Source: a virus. Taken from it: 39,851 nucleotides of DNA. Where the stretch lies: positions 1 to 39,851 of the IMG/VR virus record IMGVR_UViG_3300025940_000014, one strand, 5' to 3'. Shown here one piece after another: positions 2,935 to 39,851 of the stretch (the first letter of the stretch is position 1; every line of letters begins with the position of its first letter). The position numbers were made by a program, and so were the translations under genes. Under the pieces are notes generated by a model, which did no database searches, was not told the DNA's origin, and was given only the letters and a program-made list of their open reading frames with translations.

Positions 2935-3630
2935 ATGGCCGTCACCGTCCTGCAGTTCTCCGGAGGGATCGACTCCCTCTGCATGCTTCTGCTGCTGCGC
3001 AAGAGCAGCAGGGCGGGGGCGCATGTCGTCACGGTCCTGACCGACGGCGCGTACCCGGACGCCGAGCAGTACCTCCAGGCTGTCGCGAACGAGATGCGGA
3101 TGTACACGTTCCACACGGTCCGCACCGAGCGCTACCTCCCGCACTACGGCCAGCCGGTCGACATCGTCCCCCTGCGCTGGACCGCCATGGGCCAGCTTGC
3201 CCGGGGCACGCACGACGTCCGCTATCAGGACGCCTTCTCGTGCTGCAACCGGGCGATCTGGGAGCCGCTCGACAAGAAAAGCCGGGCGCTCGACGCGACC
3301 GACATCTACCGGGGCCAGCGCAACGACGACCGGCTGAGATCTCCGCTGAAGGACGGCGACGAGGACCGGGGCGTGCGGATGCACTTCCCGCTGGCCGACT
3401 GGGGCCGCCAGGAAGTGCGCGAGTATGTGATCGACAACGCCCCGCACCTCCTGCCCGAGTACTACGCCATGGGCGAGCAGACGTCGCGCGACTGCCTCGA
3501 CTGCACCGCCTATCGGGCCGACAACGCGATCCGGGTGGACAACCTGCCGGATCTCGAGAAGCAGCGTGTAAACGGGCTGATCACCCGCTGGCACAGAGAT
3601 GTGATCACCGAACTGGAGAACCCGAAATGA
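2935..3630 (+). CDS. PP-loop ATPase, PAPS reductase-like family
   Basis: This 231-residue protein carries an N-terminal PP-loop, FSGGIDS (residues about 8-14), the pyrophosphate-binding signature of the adenine nucleotide alpha-hydrolase fold. YRGQRNDD in the middle resembles the nucleotide-contact strand of PAPS reductase-like proteins. It has a CC pair near residue 103 and a CLDC pair near residue 189 that could bind a metal or Fe-S cluster. The C-terminal ECG-type catalytic cysteine motif of true PAPS reductase is not visible, so sulfate reduction is unlikely. Relatives include DndC and tRNA-thiolation enzymes. It sits inside the ejection-protein operon, starting one base after the previous stop. 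Confidence 0.7.
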   Translation: MAVTVLQFSGGIDSLCMLLLLRKSSRAGAHVVTVLTDGAYPDAEQYLQAVANEMRMYTFHTVRTERYLPHYGQPVDIVPLRWTAMGQLARGTHDVRYQDAFSCCNRAIWEPLDKKSRALDATDIYRGQRNDDRLRSPLKDGDEDRGVRMHFPLADWGRQEVREYVIDNAPHLLPEYYAMGEQTSRDCLDCTAYRADNAIRVDNLPDLEKQRVNGLITRWHRDVITELENPK

Positions 3631-8854: not shown

Positions 8855-9094
8855 ATGTGGACCCTGCTCCTGCCCCTGGCCCTGGCCGGCTGCGCCGTCG
8901 CGAACGAGTGCGGGTCGGCGGCTGTCAACATCAACACCCACCGCTCCATCGAAGTGGACACCGACGACCCTGAAAGGAAACCCAATGGCAACGATCTTCG
9001 AGGAAGCCCGCCGCCGCCGCGAGAAGGCGCTGGAGGAAGCAACCAACCCCCAGGCTCCACCGGCAAGTGCAACGGTTCCACCACCTCCCGTTGA
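8855..9094 (+). CDS. Small lipoprotein, possible outer-membrane spanin (Rz1-like)
   Basis: This is a 79-residue protein with a short signal sequence, MWTLLLPLALAGC, whose LAGC fits a lipobox with Cys13 as the lipidated residue. The mature part is hydrophilic and ends in a Pro/Gly-rich tail (PPPPREG...NQPPG), as in Rz1-type outer-membrane spanin subunits. It starts four bases after the tail-fibre stop without a clear Shine-Dalgarno sequence, so translation is probably coupled. Its last 110 bases overlap the next gene in another frame, an unusual amount for this genome. No inner-membrane spanin partner is obvious, so the lysis role is tentative. Confidence 0.45.
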   Translation: MWTLLLPLALAGCAVANECGSAAVNINTHRSIEVDTDDPERKPNGNDLRGSPPPPREGAGGSNQPPGSTGKCNGSTTSR

Positions 9095-9176
9095 CTTCTT
9101 CAGGCCCAAGCCGCTCGACCCCGAGGCCGAGGCGGCGAAGGCCCGCAAGCTGGCGGAACTGCTGCGCAAGCGCTGA
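8985..9176 (+). CDS. Small charged protein of unknown function
   Basis: This is a 63-residue protein preceded by AAAGGA at good spacing. It has a charged helix (residues 1-20, EEARRRREKALEEA), a proline-rich centre, and a second charged helix ending in KARKLAELLRKR. It has no transmembrane segment or recognised family. It overlaps the lipoprotein gene out of frame and precedes the holin-like gene, so it may belong to the lysis cluster. Confidence 0.55.
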   Translation: MATIFEEARRRREKALEEATNPQAPPASATVPPPPVDFFRPKPLDPEAEAAKARKLAELLRKR

Positions 9177-9210
9177 ATTCCCCGTAACGAAACCCTGACC
9201 GGAGACCGCC

Positions 9211-9405
9211 ATGGCACTCGTCAACATCCTCATCACGATCCTCATCCTGGGGCTCGTCTTCGGACTGGTCTGGTGGGTGCTCGGGCAGATCCCGCTGCCC
9301 CCGCCGTTCCTGCTGGCGGCCCAGGTCGTCCTCGGCATCATCATGGTCATCCTGCTGCTGTCGATGCTGTTCGGCGGCATCAACGTGCCGTGGAGGCTTG
9401 GATGA
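9211..9405 (+). CDS. Small two-helix membrane protein, holin candidate
   Basis: This is a 64-residue protein with a good Shine-Dalgarno sequence (CCGGAGACCGCC). There are two strongly hydrophobic helices: residues about 3-24 (ILITILILGLVFGLVWWVL) and 34-56 (LLAAQVVLGIIMVILLLSML). They are joined by a short Pro-rich turn (PLPPP). Its length and topology resemble small bacterial membrane proteins of the Thivi_2564 type and also small phage holins. Its position between a lipoprotein and a secreted protein at the end of the late operon favours a holin, which would form inner-membrane lesions at lysis. The ATG of the next gene overlaps its stop. Confidence 0.6.
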   Translation: MALVNILITILILGLVFGLVWWVLGQIPLPPPFLLAAQVVLGIIMVILLLSMLFGGINVPWRLG

Positions 9406-10634
9406 AGCGGCTGCTCCTAGCCCTGCTGCCGCTCGCCGCCCAGGCCCAGGTGCCCCCGGTCTACAACGTCGAGGGCGTCCCGGGCAAGTACATCCTGTAC
9501 AGCAACAACCTGCTGGTCAGCCGCTACAACACCCAGCCCGAGTGCTCGACGGCGGCGACCAAGCTGAAGCAGACGACGAGCAAGACGGTCATCTGCCAGA
9601 ACACGGTGACCTACATCCGGACGCCCAAGCCGGTCGAGCCGCCGCCCGACATGCACGTCGGCCTGCCGGTCAGCGACCCGTCCACATGGCCGGTCCCGCA
9701 GCCTGGAGTGGACGGGGAGTGGCTGCAGCAGACCGGGTACATCCCGCCGTCCCGTGTTACCTGGGGCTGGGAGGAGGGCGGCGACTTCCGGCTGATCTGC
9801 AACTGGTCGAAGATGGGCTACGACGACCCCATCGTCTACCCCGGCAAGCCGGGGGCGGCCCACCACCACACGTTCTTCAGCAACACCGCCATCGACGCCT
9901 TCACCACGTCGGCGAACATCCGCTCGAAGGGCAACGCGACGTGCCGTGGCGGCACGATCAACAAGTCGGGCTACTGGATACCGTCGCTGATCGACACCGC
10001 GACCAACAGGCCGCTCGCGCCGAAGGATCTGCTGATCTACTACAAGACCGGCAACTGGCCGTACTTCAACAACAACCCGCCCATCGCGCCGCTGCCGCCA
10101 GGGCTGAAGATGATCGCGGGAGATCCGACCCGCACCACGGCGGGCGGGGTCGGCACATGGCTGTGCCTGATCCCCTCGACCGGCTCGGACCGGCCCGGGA
10201 CGAAGGGGTCGGCCATCCCGACCAACTGCCAGCCCGGCGACGAGCTATGGGGCAACATCCCGTTCCCGCAGTGCTGGGACGGCAAGAACCTCGACAGCCC
10301 GGACCACAAGAGTCACCTCGCCTATCACATCCAGTTCTGGACCGGCGACCCGCAGCGCCAGTACCGCTGCCCGGACACCCACCCGGTGGTGCTGCCGGCG
10401 ATCACGTTCCTGCCGAAGTGGACCATCCCGGCCAACGCGGACACGAGCAAGTGGCGGCTGTCGTCGGACGTCTACACTGGACCCGCAGGCTACAGCCTGC
10501 ACGGCGACTGGATCAACGGCTGGGATCAGGCGATCACCGAGTTGTGGGGCCAGAAGTGCATGACCGAGAAGCGCGACTGCGGCTCGGCGAACCTGGGTGA
10601 CGGTCGCGTCACCCAGGAGTTCCAGGGGAACTAG
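9402..10634 (+). CDS. Secreted DUF1996-domain protein
   Basis: This is a 410-residue protein with a Sec signal peptide (MKRLLLALLPLAAQAQ, predicted cut after AQA). The body, residues about 120-400, matches the DUF1996 pattern: a histidine cluster in GAAHHHTFFSN, a TCRGG/SGYWIPSL block, GLKMIAGD, then CWDGKNLDSPDHKSHLAYH and CPDTHPVVLPAITF. Many conserved His, Asp and Cys suggest a metal-binding or hydrolytic centre plus disulfides, but the family has no established activity. It is the last gene of the late operon, directly after the holin-like gene. It could act on the cell envelope or surface polysaccharide. Confidence 0.8.
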   Translation: MKRLLLALLPLAAQAQVPPVYNVEGVPGKYILYSNNLLVSRYNTQPECSTAATKLKQTTSKTVICQNTVTYIRTPKPVEPPPDMHVGLPVSDPSTWPVPQPGVDGEWLQQTGYIPPSRVTWGWEEGGDFRLICNWSKMGYDDPIVYPGKPGAAHHHTFFSNTAIDAFTTSANIRSKGNATCRGGTINKSGYWIPSLIDTATNRPLAPKDLLIYYKTGNWPYFNNNPPIAPLPPGLKMIAGDPTRTTAGGVGTWLCLIPSTGSDRPGTKGSAIPTNCQPGDELWGNIPFPQCWDGKNLDSPDHKSHLAYHIQFWTGDPQRQYRCPDTHPVVLPAITFLPKWTIPANADTSKWRLSSDVYTGPAGYSLHGDWINGWDQAITELWGQKCMTEKRDCGSANLGDGRVTQEFQGN

Positions 10635-11461
10635 GCGGGCAGGGTGCCGGCCTTCTTCTGGCCGCGCCGGATGGCGAAGCGCAGGGCCAGGAGGCCGATG
10701 CCGGCGAGCGCCAGCGAGCCGGGCTCGGGCACCGCGTTCGGCGTGGCCGAGCGGTAGGCCCACTCCTCGAAGCCATCGGCGGTCGAGGCCGACCCGCCAG
10801 CGGCACCGAACGACGTGCCGAAGATCAGCCGGCTGTCGAGCGCCACGCCAGCGAATTCGGCCACCGGGATCAGCATCGACAGGTCGTAGCCCAGGCCCGA
10901 GCCCGAGAACAGCGTGCCGTCCATGACGATCTGGTTGGTCGGCCCCATCGCATAGATCAGCGACGAGAACAGGCCATCGACGTCGGCCAAGCTGGTCACG
11001 TTCTGGTTGGTCAGCAACTGCAGCGCAGCCGACTGGGCGTCCCAGATCCGGATCGTGTCGATGCTGATCAGCTTGTCGCCGACCGAGCTAGGCTCGTTGG
11101 TGTCGAGGAAGAACTGGTAGTAGTCCGTCCCGCCCAAGGTCACCACCCCCAGGTCACTTCTCGTGAAAGTGTTGGTGAAGGTGTTGGCGTTGTCGCGCTT
11201 GTCGGTCAGCGGCAGCAGGTTGACGTTCGGGATGTCGGTTGTAACCCCGGACTCCGTCCCGTTCTGCTGCGTCCCGAGGAACGGTGTGATGACACCGGAC
11301 CCGATGTTCGACAGGTTCGTCGGGTTGGAGAAGATCGTTGTCCCGCCGCTCGTGTCCGTCGCGAAGGTGCAAGAGCCATCCTTCGCGAACAGGGTGCAGA
11401 CCTCGGCGGATGCCGAGGCTGCGGCCAGCATGAGTGCGCCGGCCAGTAGTGCTTTCTTCAT
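10631..11461 (-). CDS. PEP-CTERM sorted surface protein
   Basis: This is a 276-residue protein starting at the ATG with GGGAG seven bases upstream. It has an N-terminal signal peptide, MKKALLAGALMLAAASASA. The mature region is Ser/Thr/Asn-rich with beta-sheet character and two N-terminal cysteines. The C-terminus is a textbook PEP-CTERM signal: VPEP at about 244-247, a hydrophobic helix GSLALAGIGLLALRF, then a basic AIRRGQKK cluster. In bacteria such proteins are cleaved by a host exosortase and exported with exopolysaccharide. Its stop shares CTAG with the stop of the DUF1996 gene. The gene is the last in the minus block, 72 bp from its neighbour, which suggests an accessory (moron) gene. 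Confidence 0.9.
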   Translation of the reverse strand: MKKALLAGALMLAAASASAEVCTLFAKDGSCTFATDTSGGTTIFSNPTNLSNIGSGVITPFLGTQQNGTESGVTTDIPNVNLLPLTDKRDNANTFTNTFTRSDLGVVTLGGTDYYQFFLDTNEPSSVGDKLISIDTIRIWDAQSAALQLLTNQNVTSLADVDGLFSSLIYAMGPTNQIVMDGTLFSGSGLGYDLSMLIPVAEFAGVALDSRLIFGTSFGAAGGSASTADGFEEWAYRSATPNAVPEPGSLALAGIGLLALRFAIRRGQKKAGTLPA

Positions 11462-11505
11462 TGAGATCTCCCATTGCGCCAGGGTAGGAAGGGGCACCCC
11501 GGCAA

Positions 11506-11523
11506 GGCCCCTGCAGGGGCTTT
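11506..11523 (-). terminator. Hairpin between the early operon and the PEP-CTERM gene
   Basis: The near-perfect palindrome AAGGCCCCTGCAGGGGCTTT-type sequence can fold as a GC-rich hairpin with a TGCA loop. It follows the stop of the 58-residue gene and precedes the PEP-CTERM gene. The U-tract is short on both strands, so it may only attenuate readthrough. Confidence 0.45.
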
Positions 11524-11533
11524 GATGGTGATC

Positions 11534-11710
11534 TCAGTCGGTCCCGGCGGCGAGCCCCTCACTCGTGGGGGGTGCCTGCTGGCGGCGGCGATTCTCGGCC
11601 GCCGCCTGCTCGCCGATCTTGCCGAGCAGGGTGTAGCTGACCTTGGCCGGCAGTTCGCCGAGCGCCCGCAGCAGCAGGTTCACGTCCTCGTCGGTCAGGT
11701 CGAGGTTCAT
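11534..11710 (-). CDS. Small hypothetical protein
   Basis: This is a 58-residue protein starting at an ATG that overlaps the stop of the Cro-like gene (ATGA). It has an acidic N-terminus (LDLTDEDVNLLLRALGELP), then a helix and a basic stretch (ENRRRQQ) with a flexible end. I recognise no family. Tight coupling to the Cro-like regulator suggests a shared function or shared expression. Confidence 0.55.
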   Translation of the reverse strand: MNLDLTDEDVNLLLRALGELPAKVSYTLLGKIGEQAAAENRRRQQAPPTSEGLAAGTD

Positions 11711-12030
11711 GCGTTCCCCCAGGGGAAGTCGGGCCGGAAGGTCGACGGCGGCACCTTGAAGAACGTGGCGATCTGCTGGGCGCGGAGCACCGGCAGCGGG
11801 AAGTTGCGGTCCTTCCGGCAGGCCCGCTCCCACTTGTAGATCGACTGCGGGCGTACGCCGAGGTGCTTGGCGAGGATGGACTTGTTGTGGTCCTCGGGGT
11901 CTTCCTTGAGGTACGACTCCAGCAGGTAGACGAACGGGTGGCGCGTGATGCGCTTGTCGCCCATCGTCGCCGGCAGTTTCAGGATCGGCTGGCGTGCGCC
12001 AGGGCCGGAAGTGGGTTTGGTCTTTTTCAC
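11707..12030 (-). CDS. Cro/YdaS-like helix-turn-helix DNA-binding protein
   Basis: This is a 107-residue protein with a GTG start overlapping the helicase stop (GTGA). A helix-turn-helix is visible at about residues 51-68: ILAKHLGVRPQSIYKWERA, with the conserved GV turn and SIYKWE recognition helix. PLPVLRAQQIATFF and RPDFPW follow, as in Cro or YdaS-type proteins of prophages. The N-terminus is basic and flexible. Role by inference: a late-acting repressor or switch, possibly binding the control region at 25.5 kb. It sits at the far end of the early operon rather than next to the divergent control region, which is unusual for a Cro protein. Confidence 0.7.
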   Translation of the reverse strand: MKKTKPTSGPGARQPILKLPATMGDKRITRHPFVYLLESYLKEDPEDHNKSILAKHLGVRPQSIYKWERACRKDRNFPLPVLRAQQIATFFKVPPSTFRPDFPWGNA

Positions 12031-13430
12031 TTGTTGCCTTTCAGACGGTTGAGGATTGCGGACTGGACGTCGGCCTTGGTGGACAGCGCCTGCGCGATGT
12101 CCTCATCGACCGTATCCTGCACTGCGAGGTAATGTATCACCACGGGCTTGCTTTGACCCTGGCGGTACACGCGGGCATTTGTCTGGATGTGCTCCTCCAG
12201 GGACCACGTCAGACCGAACCAGCAGACGGCATGGCCGCCGGCCTGGAGGTTCAGGCCGTGGGCCACCGACGTCGGGTGGACCAGCAGCACCGGCAGCTTG
12301 CCGGCGTTCCAGTCGGCCTCGGTGGTCTTGGCCTCGGTCTTGCTGACCCCGCCGCCCAGGTACGGCACGATGGTGCCCGGGGGCAGCACGGACTTCAGGG
12401 CCTCGCGGATCGCCGGCACCTCGTGCAGGAAGGCGACGGCCACCAGCAGCGGGGTGCCCTGCTGCTCCTCGACCAGATCGCACAGGGCGCTGATCTTGTT
12501 GTTGTGCAGGAAGGTCGAGCCGCCCTCGTGGTAGGCCCAGCCATTGACGATCTGGCGCAGCTTCATCACGGCAGCGGCGGCGGTCGGGGCGGTCAGGGTG
12601 GTGCCGTCCCGGGTCTCGGTCACGAGGTTCTGGGCAAGCTGGTTGTAGGACTTGCGGACCGCCGTCGGCAGGGTCACGGGGATGACGTTGTAGGAGATCC
12701 CCGGCATCTTCAGGTAGTCCTCGGCCTGGAGCCGCAGGCTGATGTCGGCGATCTTGCCGGCCACCTCGACGTCCGAGCCCTTGCGCGGGTGCCAGACGTC
12801 GACCGTGTCGCCGCCGCCGATGCGGATGGTCTCCGACTCCATGAACATCCTGCGGAAGTGGGTGATGTAGCGGCCCAGGCGGTGGCCGTCATCGAGGATC
12901 TGGATCTGCGCGAACAGGTCTTCGATGCTCTGCGGAGCCGGCGTGCCGGTCAGGATGAGGCGGCGTTTAAACGACGGGAGAATCTGCTTCAGGGCCTTGA
13001 AGCGCTTGCTGCGGGCGTTCTTGAAGCGGGTCGACTCATCGACCACCAGCAGTTCGGGCTTGGTGCCGAAGGCGCAGACGCCGCCGATGACGGTCGTCAG
13101 CCAGTCGACCATCTCGGGGTTGATCAGGTACACGTCGGCCGGGGTCTGCATGGCCTTCATGCGCTGGGCCGGCGTGCCGTGGACGATGGAGACCTTCAGG
13201 TGCTTGAACTGGTCCCACTTCGCGATCTCGGCCGGCCACGTCAGGTAGAGCGGTCGGAGCGGCACGACGACCAGGGCGGCCTCGATCTCCTTGTGGTGCT
13301 GGAGCACGCAGATCGCGGCCAGGGTGATCGCCGTCTTGCCCATGCCCGGGTCGAGCAGCAGGGCGAAGCCCTCGGTGCAGCAGACCTTGGCGATGGCGTT
13401 CTCTTGGAAGGGGAGCGGGTTGTACTGCAC
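12027..13430 (-). CDS. SNF2-family DNA helicase/translocase
   Basis: This 467-residue protein starts at a GTG with GAGG upstream. Superfamily 2 motifs are in order: QxxxI-type start NPLPFQENAI, Walker A DPGMGKT (27-33), VVPLRPLYLTW, Walker B variant DEST (131-134), LTGTP (160-164), then in the second lobe HPTSVAHGLNLQ and QTNARVYRQGQ (motif VI, about 432-444). This SNF2-like helicase with an adjoining VRR-NUC, VapE protein and PolA forms a replication module common in phages. It acts on DNA in replication or recombination. A promoter-like sequence lies just upstream at 13457-13486. Confidence 0.9.
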   Translation of the reverse strand: MQYNPLPFQENAIAKVCCTEGFALLLDPGMGKTAITLAAICVLQHHKEIEAALVVVPLRPLYLTWPAEIAKWDQFKHLKVSIVHGTPAQRMKAMQTPADVYLINPEMVDWLTTVIGGVCAFGTKPELLVVDESTRFKNARSKRFKALKQILPSFKRRLILTGTPAPQSIEDLFAQIQILDDGHRLGRYITHFRRMFMESETIRIGGGDTVDVWHPRKGSDVEVAGKIADISLRLQAEDYLKMPGISYNVIPVTLPTAVRKSYNQLAQNLVTETRDGTTLTAPTAAAAVMKLRQIVNGWAYHEGGSTFLHNNKISALCDLVEEQQGTPLLVAVAFLHEVPAIREALKSVLPPGTIVPYLGGGVSKTEAKTTEADWNAGKLPVLLVHPTSVAHGLNLQAGGHAVCWFGLTWSLEEHIQTNARVYRQGQSKPVVIHYLAVQDTVDEDIAQALSTKADVQSAILNRLKGNK

Positions 13431-13454
13431 TTGGAACCTCGGGTTGGTGAGCCT

Positions 13455-13742
13455 CTATTCTGATGTAGCCCCGAGGAACAGGTCAAGCAGTATTTTGAAG
13501 TGGACCGTGCTGTCGATCACGGTGACATGGAAACCGAGGGCCGCCAGTTCGGCGTGCCGGACCCGCTGGCGGGGTCGGAGCCGCCCACCCGGCCGCTTGA
13601 ACTCGACCGGCCAGAAGAGGTGCCCGGGCAGGACGAAGCCCCGGTCGGGCTCGCCCGTGATGCCCCGGTGCAGCTTGATCGGCCAGCAGCCCCGCCGGAT
13701 GGCGTAGGCCCGGCAGGAAGCCTCGATGGCGGCCTCCCTCAC
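13455..13742 (-). CDS. VRR-NUC domain nuclease
   Basis: This is a 95-residue protein starting at a GTG that overlaps the VapE stop (GTGA). It shows the minimal VRR-NUC fold: REAAIEASCRAYAIRRG, then GEPDRGFVLPG (acidic Asp), WPVEFKRPGGR (Glu-x-Lys of the PD-(D/E)xK core, about residues 45-52) and RQRVRHAELAALGFHVTVID. Stand-alone viral VRR-NUC proteins can act as structure-specific or Holliday-junction nucleases. Here it probably processes branched replication intermediates with the adjacent helicase. The last codons contain the -35-like element of the helicase promoter. Confidence 0.87.
   Translation of the reverse strand: MREAAIEASCRAYAIRRGCWPIKLHRGITGEPDRGFVLPGHLFWPVEFKRPGGRLRPRQRVRHAELAALGFHVTVIDSTVHFKILLDLFLGATSE
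13457..13486 (-). promoter_or_regulatory. Sigma70-like promoter for the SNF2 helicase gene
   Basis: On the minus strand TTGACC (13486-13481) is followed after 18 bases by CAGAAT (13462-13457), about 26 bases before the helicase GTG. The -35 element overlaps the last codons of the VRR-NUC gene. This is the same arrangement as the promoters at 20.7 and 23.35 kb. Confidence 0.5.
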
Positions 13743-16069
13743 GGCTTGATCCGGGGCTTCAGCAGCACGGCCTTGAGCGCATCCTTCTCGTTGCGGTTCA
13801 GCCAGAACGGCCACGCCCTGGCACCGCCGCCCCGCTTGCGCAGATCCTTCTTGTCGCCCAGGTGCTTGCGCAGGCCGTTCGCGACGCGCCGGCACACCAT
13901 CAGGTCGTCCCAGCGCAGGTTCAGCAGCTTCGCGACGCTGCCGGCGTTCACGCTGCACTCCAGCGGGTAGGCATCGCGGTGCTCCTCGCGTTCCGCGATC
14001 TCCTCGGCGATCTGCTCGGCCACGCTGTCGATGGTCTGGAACTGGACGCTGTGGCCCGTCTGCAGTTCCTCTTCCTCGGCCGTCAGCCAGTGCTGCTCGC
14101 CGCCGCCCCACCACGTCCGCACCTGGGCCCAAAGCTGCTGCATGTCGATGCCGTGGTCGACCACCGGCCGGCCGAGCACGTTCACCGGCAGGAACCGGCC
14201 CGAGCCGGTCGGGTCGTTCAGGAATTCGCCCTCGTTGACGCTGCCGCAGAAGCTGGTGCAGCGCGGCCGGGTCAGCCAGTCGGCGGCGTACGGCAACCGA
14301 TACTCGTCGGTCACGTCGGTGATGAAGGCCTTCAGGGCGCTGATGTCCGAGCGCTTGAAGGTGGCATCAAGCTCGCCCAGTTCCACGATCATCCCCTGCA
14401 GCGCCTCGTGCCTGCTGTCGCGCGACATCGCGCCGTTCAGGTTCAGGTTCTTCCCGGCCTTGCTGTAGCCTGGGGCGAGGCCCAGCAGCCACGACGTCTT
14501 GCCGATGCGCTGCGAGCCGACCAGCACCAGCACGAGGCCCTTCTGCGACTCCCGCTTGCGTTCCCAGCCGCAGGCGGCTTCGACACCTTGCAATAACCAG
14601 CGACGTAAATACTTCTTCCACAGGCCCTGGTCAGTGGTGCTGACGGTCGCGGCGAGCGCTTCAAACCGATCCTTGCCGTCCCACGGGATCGACTCGATCC
14701 AGTCCTTTGCCGGGTGCCAGTACAGGCTGTTCGCGATGCGCGCGAAACCGTCGCGCAGTTCCTTCTTGTTGCGCATGCCGACCATCGTGAACAGGTCGAC
14801 CAGCGCGCCCTCGATCAGGCCGTCGATCTCCAGCACCGACTTCGTGCCGAAGCGGGCCATGTCGATGCTCGGCGGCAGGATGTAGCTCGTCTTCGCGTTC
14901 AGCAGGTTCAGCCGGACCTGCACCCCCAGGGTACGCAAGCCGGCCTCGATGTTGCCGAAGGTCACCGGCTGGATCTTGCTGTAGCCCTCCTTAGTCCTGT
15001 CGGTGAACGACAGCGCCGTGATCGGGATGCGCCCCAGGGCGTCGGCCAGGGTGCCGATGTTGAACATGTCGGCCGGCTCGTAGGTCTGCTTGCGCACGGC
15101 CGGCTTGGCCTTCATGTCGGCCGCGATCTTCGCGAGCACGTCATGGAGGGCGGTGCTGGCGGGGGCCCGTATCGGCCCCTGCGGGCCGCCCCACTCCACG
15201 ATCTTCGCCCAGAAGCGGCGCTCGTAGTCCGGTGCGTTGTCGCCCTGGCCGTGCCCGTGCATGCACTCGATGCGGCTGCAGCCGGTGTGCGACAGGGCCA
15301 CCGGCAGGTAGTTGGAATCGTCGCGACCGTCGGTGTGCTCCTCGGCGAACGGGCATGTGATCTCGTACCAGCCATTGCTCTTGGCGTGGCGCACCATGCC
15401 GCGCTCGGCCAGCAGATCGAAGATCGGGTCGGCCATGCCGGCCGCCGGCAGGTCTGCGGGCACGAGGCGCGGCGGCTCGAGTTTTCCGGGTGTAACGCCC
15501 AGGGCTTCAGCCAGGGAGTCGAGCGTGTAAACGATGTCTGCATCGAAACTGTGCAGCACCGCCTTGAAGTTGCCCCGGCCCTTCTTGTCGTTCAGGCTGT
15601 CGGGGATGCGGAACAGCCGGCTCGACGTCCGCACTCCCGGATCTTGCAGGCCGGTGGCGATCAGGCCGTTGAACAGTTCATCGCCGCCGTGGATGTCGTC
15701 GGTCCATTCGAGCAGGAAGCCAAGCTGGAAGTTGCCCTTGCTGGTTTCGAGCACCCACGTCGGCGTGGCCTTCACGGCCGCGCGCTCGACCTTCGTCCCC
15801 ACGTCATCGAGCACGATGGCCCGCAGCGCCTTGGTGGTCTCCTTGCGTCGATGCCGGGTGTGGTTGGAGGCCCCGGTCGAGAAGTACCAGGGCCCGACCA
15901 GTTGCTGCTCGCGCCACTTCTCTGCCGGGAACACTTCGCGCGGCTCGGCCCCATCCTTGCCGGGGACCATGACCTTCTGCGCGACGAGGAAGTGCAACCC
16001 TTTCGGGCAACCGGCGGCAAGCGCGGTCAGGAATCCATATTGGTCGGTGCTACCATTCGTATCGCTCAC
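13739..16069 (-). CDS. Primase-helicase with VapE-type ATPase domain
   Basis: This is a 776-residue protein. The N-terminal part (about 55-190) resembles an AEP-type primase domain, with the acidic AIVLDDVGTK and SSRLFRIP segments. Residues 232-275 contain a zinc-finger-like region (ITCPF...HTGCSRIECMHGHG). The C-terminal domain matches virulence-associated protein E: Walker A GSQRIGKTS (518-526), Walker B IVELGELDA (561-569), then TDEYRLPYAADW and RFLPVNV. Such proteins prime and unwind DNA at the fork. It is followed by VRR-NUC with a GTGA overlap and preceded by a 118-bp gap with a terminator. Confidence 0.85.
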   Translation of the reverse strand: MSDTNGSTDQYGFLTALAAGCPKGLHFLVAQKVMVPGKDGAEPREVFPAEKWREQQLVGPWYFSTGASNHTRHRRKETTKALRAIVLDDVGTKVERAAVKATPTWVLETSKGNFQLGFLLEWTDDIHGGDELFNGLIATGLQDPGVRTSSRLFRIPDSLNDKKGRGNFKAVLHSFDADIVYTLDSLAEALGVTPGKLEPPRLVPADLPAAGMADPIFDLLAERGMVRHAKSNGWYEITCPFAEEHTDGRDDSNYLPVALSHTGCSRIECMHGHGQGDNAPDYERRFWAKIVEWGGPQGPIRAPASTALHDVLAKIAADMKAKPAVRKQTYEPADMFNIGTLADALGRIPITALSFTDRTKEGYSKIQPVTFGNIEAGLRTLGVQVRLNLLNAKTSYILPPSIDMARFGTKSVLEIDGLIEGALVDLFTMVGMRNKKELRDGFARIANSLYWHPAKDWIESIPWDGKDRFEALAATVSTTDQGLWKKYLRRWLLQGVEAACGWERKRESQKGLVLVLVGSQRIGKTSWLLGLAPGYSKAGKNLNLNGAMSRDSRHEALQGMIVELGELDATFKRSDISALKAFITDVTDEYRLPYAADWLTRPRCTSFCGSVNEGEFLNDPTGSGRFLPVNVLGRPVVDHGIDMQQLWAQVRTWWGGGEQHWLTAEEEELQTGHSVQFQTIDSVAEQIAEEIAEREEHRDAYPLECSVNAGSVAKLLNLRWDDLMVCRRVANGLRKHLGDKKDLRKRGGGARAWPFWLNRNEKDALKAVLLKPRIKP

Positions 16070-27141: not shown

Positions 27142-27351
27142 ATGGCGCTGAACAAGCGGTTGACGATGGAGATCGAGGTGCTGGAGACAGCGGTCGAAGC
27201 CTGCACCCTGGCGGTCGACACCGCCGAAGGGCTGCACGAGTTGAAGCTGGCCGAGGCGGCCCTGCACTCGGCGCGCAAGGAACTGGCCGACGCCCTCGAC
27301 TTCCAGGCCAAGTACGACGACGCCCTGCGCGCGTTCTCGCGCCGTCCATGA
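27142..27351 (+). CDS. Small coiled-coil protein before the large terminase
   Basis: This is a 69-residue protein starting at the ATG with GGAGGG six bases upstream; a longer form from 27115 would overlap the methyltransferase gene but lacks a ribosome site. It is nearly all helical with heptad-like spacing (LNKRLTMEIEVLETAVEA, LKLAEAALHSARKEL). It ends in an ATGA overlap with the terminase. Size, charge and position allow a terminase-associated or small-subunit role, but no family is recognised. Confidence 0.55.
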   Translation: MALNKRLTMEIEVLETAVEACTLAVDTAEGLHELKLAEAALHSARKELADALDFQAKYDDALRAFSRRP

Positions 27352-28706
27352 CCGAGATCTCGCTGCCCAACGGGTTCACGCCCAGGCCGCCGCAGAAGGC
27401 GCTGATGCGCTACTTCGACCATGGCGGCCTGCGTGCCGCCGCGTGCTGGCCGCGCCGCTTCGGCAAGGATCTGACGATGGTCCACCAGTCGGTGAAGATG
27501 GCCTTCGAGCGCCCGGGCATGTACTTCCACATGCTGCCCAACCACAAGCAGGCCAGGAAGGTCATCTGGGACGGGTTCGACAACACCGGGCAGAAGATCA
27601 TCGACTCGGCGATGCCGGCCAAGATCCGCCAGGACACCAACAAGACCGAGATGAAGATCACCCTGCGCAACGGGGCGATCTGGCAGTTGGTCGGCTCGGA
27701 CTACTTCGACAGTTTGGTCGGCGCGAACCCCTTCGGCATCACGATGTCCGAGGCCGCGCTGAGTGACCCGAGGGCGTGGCAGATCTTCCGGCCGATCCTG
27801 GCCGGCAACGGCGGCTGGGCCGCCTTCATCAGTACACCCCGGGGCTACAACCACTTCCACGATCTGGTCAAGCTGGCGGCCAGGACGCCAAGCTGGTTCC
27901 ACTCGCACCTCGGCGTCAAGGACACCCGGCACATCCCCGAGAGCGTGCTGGCCGACGAGCGCCGCGAGATGCCCGACGAGTTGTACCGCCAGGAGTACGA
28001 GTGCGACTTCAGCGCGGCCAACGTCGGTGCCGTGTTCGGGCGCTACGTCGAGGAGGCCGAGAAGCAGGGCCGGATCGGGGCCATCGACCCGCCCGGCATC
28101 CATGACGAGGTCTGGGTCACCTCGGACATCGGCTACCGCGACAAAAGCGCCTGGGTCTGGTGGAAGCGGATGCGCGGCGGCTTCGAGATCTTCCACTACG
28201 ACGACGGCAGCGGCATGGACGCCGAGGAGTGGATCACCCGCCTGCGCAAGCAGCCGAAGGCCGACGTGCTGATCCTGCCGCACGACGCCAGGGCGAAGAC
28301 GTTCTCGTCAAAGCGCAGCGCCGTCGAGGCGTTCCTGTCCGACCGGCCCTGGCCGGGCTGCGAGGTGCGTGTAAACGCGCAGCGCAAGAAGTCCGACAGC
28401 ATCAACGCCGGCCGGGTCATGCTGCGCAACATCCGGATCAGCAGCGGCGAGACCTGCGAGCCTTTCCTGGCGGCGATGCGGGCCTACGGCTTCAAGTACG
28501 ACGAGGATTCCAAGACGTTCAGCAGCGAGCCCGAGCACGACTGGTCGAGCCACGCCGCCGATGCGTACATGGAGGGCGCTGCGGCCCTGTCGGTGATCGA
28601 GCCCCCGCCGACGCCGAAGACCATAATCGTGCCCCAGATGGACCGTGCCTTCACGCTGGAGCAGCTATACGAGAACGTCGGCCCGCGCCGGTCTGGGAGA
28701 CTCTGA
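27348..28706 (+). CDS. Terminase large subunit
   Basis: This is a 452-residue protein with both enzymatic halves. ATPase: Walker A variant WPRRFGKD (34-41), Walker B PFGITMSEA with Glu135, and coupling motif ISTPRG (161-166). Nuclease (RNase H-like): TSDIGYRDKSA (Asp260), LILPHDAR (Asp313) and HDWSSHAADAY (398-407). It translocates DNA into the prohead and cuts the concatemer. The type of end it makes (headful or defined) cannot be read from the sequence alone, although circular permutation of the assembly would fit headful packaging. Confidence 0.95.
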   Translation: MTEISLPNGFTPRPPQKALMRYFDHGGLRAAACWPRRFGKDLTMVHQSVKMAFERPGMYFHMLPNHKQARKVIWDGFDNTGQKIIDSAMPAKIRQDTNKTEMKITLRNGAIWQLVGSDYFDSLVGANPFGITMSEAALSDPRAWQIFRPILAGNGGWAAFISTPRGYNHFHDLVKLAARTPSWFHSHLGVKDTRHIPESVLADERREMPDELYRQEYECDFSAANVGAVFGRYVEEAEKQGRIGAIDPPGIHDEVWVTSDIGYRDKSAWVWWKRMRGGFEIFHYDDGSGMDAEEWITRLRKQPKADVLILPHDARAKTFSSKRSAVEAFLSDRPWPGCEVRVNAQRKKSDSINAGRVMLRNIRISSGETCEPFLAAMRAYGFKYDEDSKTFSSEPEHDWSSHAADAYMEGAAALSVIEPPPTPKTIIVPQMDRAFTLEQLYENVGPRRSGRL

Positions 28707-30740
28707 ATGGCGATTACCAGTAGCGAAACTGCGTACGGCAGCGACCCTGACCCGAGCACCACCAAGGCCGTCGGCGAGCCTGTGAAGCCCGGGGATCAAT
28801 CCAAGGTTCCCGAGGAAGTCAGGGGCAAGAGCCCGGCCGAGATGGCGCAGCGCTGGGAGAAGGAACTGACCGCCGCGAAGCGGGAACTGTCGAAGTTCCA
28901 CGGCACCGGCAAGAAGCTGGTCAGCCGCTACTTGGACGAGCGCGACGGGGCAGCGGACGACACCGCCGAGGCCAAGTTCAACCTGTTCTGGTCGAACATC
29001 GAGGTGCTCAAGGCGAGCCTCTACGCCAAGCCGCCGGATGTCGACGTCAGCAACAGCTACAAGGACAGCGAGGACGACGTCAGCCGGGTGGCCGGCAACA
29101 TCCTGCAGCGGATGCTGAACCACGACATCGAGGACGGCGACGAGTCGACCTACCCGGACATCACCAAGCAGGCCGTCGGCGACTACCTCGTGGTCGGCCT
29201 GGGGCAGGTCTGGTATCGGTACGAGGTCGAGACCAGGGAGAACGAGACCGAGGCCGTGACCGACCCACAGACCGGGGTTACATTGGCCGAGCCGATCAAG
29301 TACGAGGCCATCGTGGGCGAGGACGCGCCGGCCGACTACGTCTACTGGGAGGACTTCTGGTGGTCGCCGGCCCGGGTCTGGCAGGACGTGCGCTGGGTCG
29401 CCCGCCGGGTCTACATGAACCGCGAGGAACTGATCGCCCGCTTCGGCCCGAAGATCGGCAAGGTCATCCCGGTCACCAAGAGCAAGTCGGGCGGCGTGCA
29501 GAACGACCCGTGGGAGAAGGCCGGCGTCTTCGAGATCTGGGACAAGACCACGCAGTGCGCCTACTGGCACGTCCTCGGGTTCGACCTGATCTGCGACTAC
29601 AAGCCGGACCCTTTGAAGCTCCGGGGTTTCTTCCCGTGCCCGCCGCCGATGATCGCGAACGCGGCCACCAGCAAGTACATGCCCCGGGGCGACTACCTCC
29701 TGGCCCAGGACCAGTACCAGCAGATAGACGAGTTGACGACCCGGCTGAAGTACCTGATCCGCGCCTGCAAGGTCGTCGGCGTGTACGACAAGAACAGCAC
29801 CCCCATCGGCCGGGTCTTCACCGAGGGCCTGGAGAACCAGATGATCCCGGTCGACAACTGGGCCGCGTTCGCCGAGAAGGGCGGCCTGAAGGGCCAGATG
29901 GACTTCGTCCCCATCGAGGTGATCGCGGGCGTGATCGAGCGCCTGACGGCGCAACGCGAGGTGCTCAAGGCCAACCTCTACGAGGTGCTCGGCATCGGCG
30001 ACATCATGCGCGGCATGACCGACCCGGACGAGACCCTCGGGGCCCAGCAACTGAAGGCCCAGTTCGGCGGCAATCGGCTCCAGTTCAAGCAGCAGGCCAT
30101 CGGCGAGTGGGTCGCCCAGGGCCAGCGCATCAGGGCCCAGATCATCTGCGACAAGTTCCAGCCGCAGACGATCCTTGAGCGCAGCAACATCGAGAAGTCG
30201 CCCGATGCGCCGCTGGCCCAGCAGGCCATCGCGTTCCTGAAGGAACCGGGCAACTCGAAGTTCTACCGGATCACCATCGAGTCCGAGACCATGGCGATGG
30301 TCGACTGGGCCCAGGAGCGCGACAGTCGCAGCCAGTTCATGCAGGCGGTCGGCACCTTCGTCACCGCTGTCACGCCGCTGATCGAGTCCAAGCCCGAGTC
30401 CGGCCCCATCGTGCTGCAGATGATGAAGTGGGGCCTGGGCGGCTTCCGGATCTCCAAGGAGATCGAGACCGTGCTCGACCAAGCCATCGCGGCTGCGCAG
30501 CAGCCGGTCGCACCGCCCGAACCCAAGCCGCTCGAAGAGGCAGCGGTCCGAGAGAAGGAGGCCAATGCCGTCAAGAACAAGACCCAGGCTGTCAAGAACC
30601 TCGCCGACGCCGGCCAGAAGAGTGCTGAGTCCATGCTTCTCAGCCCTGGCGGCATCGGTCCCGGCGGCATGGCGATGCAGCCGCCGCCCAACGTAGCACC
30701 ATTGCAACCTGCGCCCATGCCGGGCGCGCCCATCCAGTAG
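28707..30740 (+). CDS. Portal protein
   Basis: This is a 677-residue protein that starts directly after the terminase stop with GGGAG upstream. It has the long alpha-helical wing and clip layout of podovirus portals: a charged N-terminus, AEAKFNLFWSNIEVLKASLYAKPP (in part) near residue 90, EDFWWSPARVWQDVRWVARRVYM (in part) and a C-terminal helical, Gln/Pro-rich barrel-like tail ending in PPPNVAPLQPAPMPG. It would form a dodecameric ring through which DNA passes. Position after terminase and large size are the main support. Confidence 0.88.
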   Translation: MAITSSETAYGSDPDPSTTKAVGEPVKPGDQSKVPEEVRGKSPAEMAQRWEKELTAAKRELSKFHGTGKKLVSRYLDERDGAADDTAEAKFNLFWSNIEVLKASLYAKPPDVDVSNSYKDSEDDVSRVAGNILQRMLNHDIEDGDESTYPDITKQAVGDYLVVGLGQVWYRYEVETRENETEAVTDPQTGVTLAEPIKYEAIVGEDAPADYVYWEDFWWSPARVWQDVRWVARRVYMNREELIARFGPKIGKVIPVTKSKSGGVQNDPWEKAGVFEIWDKTTQCAYWHVLGFDLICDYKPDPLKLRGFFPCPPPMIANAATSKYMPRGDYLLAQDQYQQIDELTTRLKYLIRACKVVGVYDKNSTPIGRVFTEGLENQMIPVDNWAAFAEKGGLKGQMDFVPIEVIAGVIERLTAQREVLKANLYEVLGIGDIMRGMTDPDETLGAQQLKAQFGGNRLQFKQQAIGEWVAQGQRIRAQIICDKFQPQTILERSNIEKSPDAPLAQQAIAFLKEPGNSKFYRITIESETMAMVDWAQERDSRSQFMQAVGTFVTAVTPLIESKPESGPIVLQMMKWGLGGFRISKEIETVLDQAIAAAQQPVAPPEPKPLEEAAVREKEANAVKNKTQAVKNLADAGQKSAESMLLSPGGIGPGGMAMQPPPNVAPLQPAPMPGAPIQ

Positions 30741-34816: not shown

Positions 34817-35788
34817 ATGGCCGTTCCCAACGTAAGCGACATCGTCGCGACCACGATCCAGTCACGCACCCGCAAGATCGCGGACAACGTGACCAAGAAC
34901 AACGCCCTGTACAAGAAGCTGGACATGCGGGGCAACCGCAAGACGTTCAGCGGCGGCAACGTGATCTACCAAGAGTTGTCCTTCGCGCAGAACGCGAACG
35001 GAAGCTGGTACTCGGGCTATGACCTGCTGCCCGTGGCGGCGTCGGACGTCATCAGCGCGGCCGAGTTCACCATCAAGCAGCTTGCCTGCCCGGTGACGAT
35101 GTCCGGCCTGGAGACCATCCAGAACGCCGGCAAGGAACAGATGATCGACCTGATGGAGGCCCGCATCAACGTCGCCGAGTCGACCATGGCGAACCTGATG
35201 GCCGAGGGCATCTACAGCGACGGCACGACCTATGGCGGCAAGTCGCTCACCGGCCTCGCGGCCTGCGCACCGGCCCTGGCACCCGCCTCGCAGTCGACGG
35301 CCTATGGCGGCATCGTCGGCACGACGTGGCCCTTCTGGACGTCCAAGTACACGCTCACGGCAGCGCAGACGGCGGCCAACATCCAGGGCTTTATGAACAC
35401 GATGTGGGCGAGCCTCGTGCGTGGCACCGACCGGCCGGATCTGATCGTGATGGACAACGGACCCTGGGGCGTCTACATGGCGAGCCTGCAGGCCCAGCAG
35501 CGCTTCACCGGCACCGAGATCGGCAACCTCGGGTTCCCGGCGCTGAAGTTCATGGACTGCGACGTGATCCTCGACGGCGGCATCGGCGGCTACTGCCCGA
35601 CGAACACGACGTTCTTCCTCAACACCAAGTACCTGTTCCTGCGCCCGCACTCGGCGCGCGACATGGTGCCGTTGAGCCCGAACAAGCGCTATGCCATCAA
35701 CCAAGACGCCGAGGTCTCGATCCTGGCCTGGGCGGGCAACCTGACCTGCAGCGGCCGGCAGTTCCAGGGCCGGATGGTTGGAGCGTAG
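34817..35788 (+). CDS. Major capsid protein (putative)
   Basis: This is a 323-residue protein with a very strong ribosome site (TCTGGAGG). It has the layout of a phage coat protein: a helical N-terminus (VSDIVATTIQSRTRKIADNV), a central FAQNANGSWYSGYDLLPV, a long helix with MEARINVAESTMANLMAEG, and a C-terminal half with DLIVMDNGPWGVYMASLQ and RPHSARDMVPL. Position after the scaffold, its own gap upstream and a hairpin downstream support this. I infer an HK97-type fold. Confidence 0.85.
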   Translation: MAVPNVSDIVATTIQSRTRKIADNVTKNNALYKKLDMRGNRKTFSGGNVIYQELSFAQNANGSWYSGYDLLPVAASDVISAAEFTIKQLACPVTMSGLETIQNAGKEQMIDLMEARINVAESTMANLMAEGIYSDGTTYGGKSLTGLAACAPALAPASQSTAYGGIVGTTWPFWTSKYTLTAAQTAANIQGFMNTMWASLVRGTDRPDLIVMDNGPWGVYMASLQAQQRFTGTEIGNLGFPALKFMDCDVILDGGIGGYCPTNTTFFLNTKYLFLRPHSARDMVPLSPNKRYAINQDAEVSILAWAGNLTCSGRQFQGRMVGA

Positions 35789-35847: not shown

Positions 35848-36408
35848 ATGCAGCCATTCCTCGCACTCATCACGCCACTCACCGAGCCTCCGGGCGGCGG
35901 TGGTGGCGGTGGCGGCGGCCAGCCGCCTCTCGGCATCTGGGGACCGACCGACCCTCGGCCCACCTTCCCGATCTCGGGATGGAACCCCGGCACCGGCAAC
36001 TTCCCGGAGCAGCCGCCGACAGGTGGCGGCGGCCAGCCGCCGGTCCCGTCGCACCCCATCGCGGGCGGCCCGTGGCCCACTCACCCGATCTTCTTCCCGC
36101 CGGGCACCCGCCCGCCGGGCCAGGGTGGGCCGATGCCTCCGCAGCCAGGACAGCCTCCCGGCATCTGGGGCCCGAACGATCCGCGCCCGACGCTCCCGAT
36201 TGCCGGCTGGAACCCTGGAACCGGCAACTTCCCGGAAGGCCCGGGCGGCGGTGGCGGCGAGTCGCCAGAACCGAAATTCGAGATGAAGACGGCATGGTCG
36301 CAGCAGACCGGCTGGATCGTCATCTTCGTGCCGGCTGAAGGCACGCTCGTTCCGACGCCCTCGAAGGAAGGCTCGGAGTCGGGCGGCGAAGAGTCCGGCG
36401 ACGAGTGA
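35848..36408 (+). CDS. Gly/Pro-rich late protein with internal repeats
   Basis: This is a 186-residue protein starting at ATG with CGGAGAACC upstream. After a nine-glycine tract it contains two near-identical 26-residue units beginning GIWGP and ending GTGNFPE, at about residues 29-54 and 105-130. A Pro-rich PTHPIFFPPGTRPPGQ lies between them. The C-terminus is a small beta unit (AWSQQTGWIVIFVPAEGT) with an acidic end. Proteins with GIWGP and proline repeats are frequent beside capsid genes in phages; their role is unproven, possibly capsid decoration or neck. Confidence 0.65.
   Translation: MQPFLALITPLTEPPGGGGGGGGGQPPLGIWGPTDPRPTFPISGWNPGTGNFPEQPPTGGGGQPPVPSHPIAGGPWPTHPIFFPPGTRPPGQGGPMPPQPGQPPGIWGPNDPRPTLPIAGWNPGTGNFPEGPGGGGGESPEPKFEMKTAWSQQTGWIVIFVPAEGTLVPTPSKEGSESGGEESGDE
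35932..36008 (+). repeat. 77-bp direct repeat, copy 1
   Basis: This copy, starting GGCATCTGGGG and ending TTCCCGGA, recurs 228 bases downstream. It encodes the first GIWGP unit. Confidence 0.85.
36160..36236 (+). repeat. 77-bp direct repeat, copy 2
   Basis: Second copy of the unit at 35932, with mostly silent base changes and three amino-acid differences in the encoded 26 residues. This points to an old internal duplication kept under protein-level selection. Confidence 0.85.
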
Positions 36409-38922: not shown

Positions 38923-39165
38923 ATGCCGCTCGATCTCCCCCCTGGCTGGGCCATCACCCACACCCTGGAGCACGTCCCTGACCCGAACGAAGGGACCGAG
39001 CCGATGGCGGCCGGGCCGGGCTTCGACCGCTGGACCTGGATCTGCACCGACGAGCGCGGACAGTACGTCTGCGCCAGCGGGTCCGGGCCCGACTGCGAGT
39101 CGCAGGCACTGAGCATGGCCCAGGCCAGGACGCAGCAGCGGCCGTACGACAAGGTGAGCCACTGA
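38923..39165 (+). CDS. Small late hypothetical protein
   Basis: This is an 80-residue protein. DRWTWICTDERGQYVCASGSG suggests a small beta-sheet with two cysteines, followed by a helical end (LSMAQARTQQRPYDK). No family recognised. Its TGA shares a base with the ATG of the nozzle protein, so translation is coupled. Confidence 0.6.
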   Translation: MPLDLPPGWAITHTLEHVPDPNEGTEPMAAGPGFDRWTWICTDERGQYVCASGSGPDCESQALSMAQARTQQRPYDKVSH

Positions 39166-39851
39166 TGGTCCTGCAGGTTTCACCCCACCCGCGCCGGACC
39201 ATCCCGCGCCGGTCGAGCGCGACCCAGACGCACTCGGCGTTCGCCTTCCCGTCGCCGCAGAAGGGGATCAACACGGCCCAGCCGCTGACGGCCGGCAGTC
39301 CGCTGACGGCCCTGCGCCTGGAGAACCTGATCCCCCGGGCCCTCGGGTGCCAGATGCGGCGGGGCTTCACACGCTGGACGTCGAACCTCGACGGCGAGGT
39401 GCGCAGCCTGATGAAGTACCAGCCGGCGCTCGGCGTCCCGAAGATGTTCGCGGCGACCAGCACGGGCAAGATCTACAACGTGACGACGGCCACGCTGTCG
39501 GGCGTCACGCCGGCCGCCGTCACGACGGTGACGGGCGGCACGCCCCCGGGCGAGTGGACGTCGCTCAACTTCGTGTCCCAGGCCGGCGTGCATGGCCTCG
39601 TCTGCGTGAACCCCGGGAGTGGATACTGGGTCTACAACGGCACGACGTTCACGCACGTCACGATGGGTGCCGGGGTCGGGCAGGTCGGTGGCGTCAACCC
39701 GAACCTCTTCACCTTCGTCACCGTCTTCAAGAACCGGCTCTGGTTCATCGAGGGCGGCAGCACCCGTGCGTGGTACTTGCCGCTCGGCCAGTTCTACGGG
39801 GCGGCGGTCTCGTTCGACTTCGGCGCGATGCTGCCCAACGGCGGCGAGCTT
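39165..39851 (+). CDS. Tail nozzle / stabilisation-like protein, 5' part (continues at base 1)
   Basis: This is the first 229 residues of the 552-residue protein completed by bases 1-1430. It starts with the ATG that overlaps the upstream TGA. The N-terminus contains basic SPHPRRTIPRRSS and a strand-rich start GINTAQPLTAGSPL, then LRLENLIPRALGCQMRRGF, typical of ring-forming tail proteins. Compared with the left copy this end encodes two amino-acid differences (Asp to Asn and Arg to His). Confidence 0.65.
   Translation, partial: MVLQVSPHPRRTIPRRSSATQTHSAFAFPSPQKGINTAQPLTAGSPLTALRLENLIPRALGCQMRRGFTRWTSNLDGEVRSLMKYQPALGVPKMFAATSTGKIYNVTTATLSGVTPAAVTTVTGGTPPGEWTSLNFVSQAGVHGLVCVNPGSGYWVYNGTTFTHVTMGAGVGQVGGVNPNLFTFVTVFKNRLWFIEGGSTRAWYLPLGQFYGAAVSFDFGAMLPNGGEL
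39394..39851. repeat. Right copy of the terminal overlap
   Basis: These 458 bases match 1-458 at all but seven positions, with no insertions or deletions. Two of the seven change an amino acid of the nozzle protein; the other five appear silent. Confidence 0.93.

Follow-up and report, generated by a model that had tools for sequence, protein, structure and literature searches.

What does a phage do with a gene for a PEP-CTERM protein? We addressed this question for gene P0001, which lies on the minus strand at 10631..11461 of IMG/VR record IMGVR_UViG_3300025940_000014, a 39.85-kb phage contig that we analysed over its whole length of 39,851 nucleotides and refer to as the window. The work is computational throughout. 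The window encodes a terminase large subunit (27348-28706), a portal (28707-30740), a major head protein (34817-35788), an amidase-like protein (6-1430), PolA, a VapE-type primase, an SNF2 helicase and an exonuclease, which bears out the original prediction that the gene sits in a genuine phage genome. Frames at the two record ends (39165-39851 and 6-1430) both resemble the amidase-like phrog_5107, and no exact terminal repeat of at least 10 bases was found in the window record. A phosphoadenosine phosphosulfate reductase-like gene lies inside the late module (2935-3630). We rejected a host assignment from the nearest catalogued portals and terminases, those of Myxococcus Mx8/Mx9 and Stenotrophomonas phages, which at 32-42% are too distant.

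Substrates of the PEP-CTERM/exosortase system cross the inner membrane, present the PEP motif at the periplasmic face and are cleaved by exosortase (Haft et al. 2006, PMC1569441). The open reading frame of P0001 starts with ATG, is preceded by a Shine-Dalgarno-like GGGAGAT (11466..11472, minus strand) read off the sequence, and encodes 276 aa in three parts, all on the minus strand: (i) a predicted signal peptide of residues 1-19 (11405..11461; MKKALLAGALMLAAASASA), with an AxA site and cleavage before E; (ii) an ectodomain of about 220 aa (residues 20-243; 10733..11404), delimited by alignment and predicted to be beta-rich; and (iii) a PEP-CTERM anchor region (residues 244-276; 10634..10732) at the C-terminus, VPEPGSLALAGIGLLALRFAIRRGQKKAGTLPA, in which VPEP occupies residues 244-247 and a hydrophobic helix (hydropathy 2.2 at residues 250-264) precedes an RRGQKK tail. 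Internally, one stretch shows moderate hydrophobicity (1.9). The protein has no lipobox, C22 being preceded by A-E-V. The complete exosortase-substrate anatomy described in the original prediction, from signal peptide to basic cluster, is thus present in exactly the frame proposed.

P0001 closes a leftward replication module. Upstream of it and in the same orientation lie a 58-aa ORF (cluster c6; 11534..11710, minus strand) that is conserved beside the PEP-CTERM gene, an 85-aa Cro/repressor-like regulator (cluster c4; 11707..11964, minus strand) conserved in syntenic phages, and the SNF2-type helicase (cluster c2; 12027..13430, minus strand), which marks the replication module. On the other side P0001 faces, and overlaps at its 3' end, the rightward gene that ends the late module and encodes a 410-aa, signal-peptide-bearing DUF1996 protein (PF09362, 152 bits; 9402..10634, plus strand). 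A 64-aa small membrane protein (cluster c9; 9211..9405, plus strand) is encoded next to it and is also found near the PEP-CTERM gene in contigs L023, L024 and L025-L028. Within the window, we saw neither a promoter belonging to P0001 nor an intrinsic terminator after it.

The class assignment draws on two general profiles. PF07589 matched the window protein at 26.5 bits, over its gathering score of 20.7; a six-frame scan gave 31 bits (E 1.8e-8) as the sole match in the whole record, and 14 control genomes gave no match. TIGR02595 gave 13.0 bits against a cut-off of 16, missing by 3 bits a value that is a model threshold and corresponds to no biological feature. The PEP-CTERM signal that a profile search was expected to find was therefore recovered by PF07589 but not by TIGR02595. 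Close relatives of the protein pass TIGR02595 (L002, 16.3 bits; L025, 18.9; L029, 20.5; L033, 24.8), and 22 of the 27 records scanned pass PF07589. L029 falls 1 bit below the PF07589 cut-off yet exceeds that of TIGR02595, and L025, which also exceeds it, is one of four contigs (L025-L028) with an APEP variant of the anchor. Among the named NCBIfam PEP-CTERM subfamilies (PepA, THxN, FxDxF and others), the best score of the window protein was 30.3 against a cut-off of 85; the PepA model NF033554 gave 18.4 bits against 80, and TIGR03118 was absent from the models matched. No tested member of the protein's family, which we call c0, passed a subfamily cut-off. Because no named subfamily was reached, we leave the ectodomain family unnamed.

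Family c0 occurs in 30 further IMG/VR contigs, 31 viral contigs with the window, and a repeat search with different patterns added none. Several of the 30 are near-copies of each other, and the alignment comprises 21 different proteins. All full-length members retain a predicted signal peptide (a basic N-terminus, a hydrophobic stretch and AxA, by hydropathy and pattern) and a PEP or APEP anchor, with basic tails throughout. PEP is invariant in the 21-row alignment, as are C22 and C31 (window numbering); the latter is what would be expected of an exported, disulfide-bonded protein, and we infer that the two cysteines probably pair. Nine contigs (L004-L010, L023 and L024), some truncated at one end, are syntenic with the window in the order PolA, primase, helicase, c4, (c6), PEP-CTERM gene. 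Because the gene adjoins the same phage genes in all nine, we ruled out a chimeric assembly; the join to bacterial DNA that had been raised as a danger to the original prediction is not the case.

The gene is not confined to one genomic position. It ends the replication operon in the window, L004-L010 and L023, lies between the major head protein and head-completion genes in L012, L013 and L015, and stands a few genes ahead of the terminase in L033. The search for homologues with conserved neighbours in other phages thus succeeded among IMG/VR contigs (30, nine of them syntenic) but found none in catalogued phages: c0 had no member among 50,697 catalogued phages or 72,556 plasmids. The two further PEP-CTERM families described below are likewise absent from the catalogued phages. 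A 25-residue consensus anchor had no match in phages either, although this short, low-complexity query has little power. We found no generally conserved partner gene, except a tandem gene in three c0 contigs (see below). The DUF1996 neighbour was rejected as a partner, since none of the other contigs contains it; among catalogued phages, its protein is distantly matched in five records, of which three carry the label Salmonella. A proline/glycine-rich phage protein, mostly starting MQPFLA(L/M)ITPL (window 35848-36408; L016:7934-8689; L030:9352-9810; L051:8372-8737), adjoins the PEP-CTERM gene in several contigs and lies elsewhere in the window.

The frame is conserved in the 30 other contigs and ectodomain dN/dS across pairs is 0.06-0.53, on which grounds we treat the gene as coding. 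These ratios, all below 1, point to purifying selection on the ectodomain and therefore to a protein that is maintained. Mean pairwise identity is 0.56 for the ectodomain, 0.37 for the signal peptide and 0.44 for the anchor. Sequence comparisons also indicate that the gene moves between unrelated phages. The window and L002 proteins are 83% identical, next to 38% for the helicase, 29% for the amidase-like protein and 24-35% for structural proteins; for L004 and L022 the values are 82% for the PEP-CTERM protein, 26% for the helicase and 25% for PolA. L004 and L022 are sister rows in the tree (support 100/97), as are the window and L002 (88/87). Among the syntenic contigs, the divergence of the protein is close to that of the helicase, and we conclude that vertical inheritance also operates there.

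Some phages carry more than one such gene. In L029, L032 and L033, the gene directly upstream of the c0 gene encodes another PEP-CTERM protein, unrelated to it (family c65, found in ten contigs); L022 and L017 have other additional PEP-CTERM genes. In L048, L049 and L051, a third PEP-CTERM family fills the second position of the pair. L033 has an intrinsic terminator after the gene (12 pairs, 9 of them G-C), so that transcripts of the tandem pair have an end of their own. The phages L033 and L048 are related, with 82% identity over 3.2 kb upstream and 90% over 5.4 kb downstream. Their homology breaks off after the first 8 nt of the second gene and restarts precisely at the VPEP V codon, so that this gene combines unrelated ectodomains with anchor DNA that is 92% identical. 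Comparison of L032 with L051 aligns the c65 ectodomain (78%) and the second anchor (81%) (shuffled control mean 56%, maximum 72.5%), and the first anchor and second ectodomain fail to align. Overall, L048 and L051 share 86% identity in their third-family proteins, which differ mainly at both ends. The simplest reading of these few available pairs is that recombination occurs at the conserved anchor and start regions; for L032 and L051, convergent conservation of the anchor may be an alternative.

A substrate without its own enzyme would have to rely on the host. As had been proposed, the window phage encodes no exosortase: PF09721 finds nothing in it, nor in 16 relatives and seven c65 contigs (24 phage records in all, some of them fragments), and we rejected a phage-encoded exosortase on this basis. 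Bacterial homologues of the PEP-CTERM protein appear to be few and remote. From 84,980 genomes we recovered a single homologue, 31% identical; the scan used two exact peptide patterns, so diverged relatives will have been missed. When 47 genomes of the same phylum as this homologue were searched with a profile, four gave strong matches, three of which have an exosortase, and the nearest homologue found overall remains at about 31%. In two genomes, the bacterial homologue lies beside TPR proteins that resemble YbgF/BamD below model cut-offs (L037:2518-3720, L039:2551-3726). That the gene narrows the host range to exosortase-bearing Gram-negatives, as originally suggested, is a reasonable inference.

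We modelled the ectodomain (residues 20-241) with AlphaFold2 and 22 sequences and obtained a mostly beta model of moderate quality (pLDDT 73, pTM 0.78); an initial model of the whole protein was of low quality (pLDDT 53) and was left unused. Foldseek matched the ectodomain model to no entry of PDB or BFVD at E <= 0.001, and a sequence-profile search of the ectodomain against PDB found no relative.

We propose that the protein is an accessory, moron-like exosortase substrate that is displayed on the infected cell or its matrix, where it most likely blocks adsorption of other or progeny phages; we put the probability of this reading at about 0.42. The host Sec pathway would export the protein, the VPEP-helix-basic anchor would hold it in the inner membrane, and a host exosortase, whose presence we assume, would cut at PEP and deliver the ectodomain to the cell surface or into exopolysaccharide. 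Since the signatures for these steps are common to all full-length members, we consider export, anchoring and processing very probable, and the sequences support the export route in particular well. The beta-rich, probably disulfide-bonded ectodomain would then alter the cell surface such that no further phages adsorb and progeny are spared loss on debris. Given the earlier steps, this last one has an even chance or slightly less in our estimate. Four observations suggest it: the gene is exchanged between unrelated phages, ectodomains are swapped while the anchor stays, the gene is bound to neither a genome position nor the replication genes, and some contigs have anti-defence genes close by. 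Profile searches place Acb2/Tad1 anti-CBASS genes near the PEP-CTERM locus of L022 (11547-11837) and L025 (11069-11293). ORFs similar to these hairpin proteins also occur in L033, L048 and L049, the profile matches being those of L022 and L025 only. Superinfection exclusion, receptor masking and biofilm change, all named in the original prediction, are each compatible with the data, and adsorption blocking is one among several surface functions that fit. We favour it on three grounds: the anchor stays while ectodomains are exchanged, the gene is tied to neither replication nor head genes, and phages are known to use surface proteins in this way, Ltp (described below) and T5 Llp being examples. 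Counting against the proposal are the lack of a structural match for the ectodomain among solved structures (PDB) and predicted viral ones (BFVD), the TIGR02595 score of the window protein, and the fact that we saw no promoter belonging to the gene in the window.

Another of these phages' possible uses for such a protein is in the matrix itself. Like PepA, it could join exopolysaccharide and, by altering how cells aggregate or form biofilm, make infected or lysed cells cohere or release virions better, with adsorption blocking not its role. PEP-CTERM proteins of known phenotype do act in flocs and biofilms (PMC9850573), and residues 104-211 of the L033 c65 partner score 40 bits with the PepA model. 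That score is under the cut-off of 80, however, no tested family member exceeds any subfamily cut-off, and ectodomain swaps on a kept anchor suit an arms race better than one fixed role, which makes a matrix function unlikely in our judgement. The same swaps could be read in reverse, with the anchor as the active part: an abundant substrate would occupy the host exosortase and leave host surface proteins, receptors or defences among them, unsorted, while the ectodomain is passive. Retention of the anchor during ectodomain exchange fits this, as does variation of signal peptide and anchor among phages, as if tuned to each host. Yet the ectodomain is more conserved than either and is under purifying selection, which passive cargo does not need, and we regard a decoy as improbable.

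Two explanations remain. Its place in the head operon of L012, L013 and L015, shortly downstream of the major head protein, could indicate that the product is built into the particle or acts on the envelope at lysis. In the window and its syntenic relatives, however, the gene ends a replication operon on the opposite strand; the family was not found in the catalogued phages searched, and an exosortase substrate anchored in the membrane would hardly be expected in a virion. We therefore give a virion or lysis component little credence. Least credible of all is that the gene was picked up from a host by chance, or assembled into the contig by error, and does nothing for the phage. PEP-CTERM proteins are typical of bacteria and distant chromosomal homologues exist, but the same locus recurs in nine other contigs, the family spans 31, dN/dS lies far under 1, and all phage members group on one side of the tree.

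Known systems provide partial parallels. Like bacterial EpsH substrates (PMC1569441), the protein has a signal peptide, a near-invariant PEP, a hydrophobic helix, a basic tail and an ectodomain without similarity to known families; unlike them, it is encoded by phages that lack an exosortase, its ectodomain family is unnamed, its anchors coincide with swap points between phages, and the window protein just misses TIGR02595. It resembles PepA in overall architecture, with weak similarity mostly in the C-terminal region, but has no ectodomain in common with this flocculation-associated protein. Ltp, a surface lipoprotein of Streptococcus phage TP-J34, confers superinfection exclusion and protects the host (PMC3952083). 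Both are phage-encoded, exported, membrane-tethered on the infected cell and horizontally spread morons, as predicted for the window protein from its sequence; Ltp differs in its lipid anchor, Gram-positive host and temperate phage, and we claim no sequence relation. A lysogenic role like that of Ltp is unlikely for most of these phages, since all but one of 33 records, many of them fragments, lack a tyrosine integrase (L016 is the exception), and we disfavour lysogenic conversion accordingly. Subject to that incompleteness, most of the phages give no hint of being temperate. In L016, genes that by appearance only are glycosyltransferase- and methyltransferase-like surround the PEP-CTERM gene (9010-14230) and may bear on surface modification.

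That no phage role was established for such proteins agrees with the literature searched, in which we found no description of a phage PEP-CTERM protein or its role; most subscription journals lay outside its scope, and an earlier description may exist. The nearest account is a survey of Yellowstone virus contigs with 13 cell-derived virus proteins carrying the exosortase-interaction domain TIGR03118 (PMC11003980). These share an exosortase-type C-terminal signal in virus contigs and are merely listed as acquired from cells, without further analysis.

Judged from the sequences compared here, the single case first predicted belongs to a phage gene family that recurs, is exchanged and has both tandem and swapped forms. 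With relatives in about 30 contigs of uncultured phages, some of which swap the outer part under a kept tag, phages appear to exploit the machinery with which the host sorts its own surface proteins. More tentatively, phages of exosortase-bearing bacteria may keep a shared stock of exchangeable surface-display genes, in which swappable ectodomains are joined at PEP to host-matched anchors, sometimes in tandem, and rewrite the surface of the infected cell. If such an exchangeable set exists, phages would be making general use of a protein-sorting system that belongs to bacteria. Environmental Gram-negatives have PEP-CTERM proteins in large sets, of which few have an assigned role. These phages have one or two such proteins per genome, under selection and swapped on a kept anchor, and would offer small, testable examples of how PEP-CTERM ectodomains act. 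If the proposal is true, these phages depend on a host exosortase, and their genes would help to predict hosts and provide exosortase reporters.
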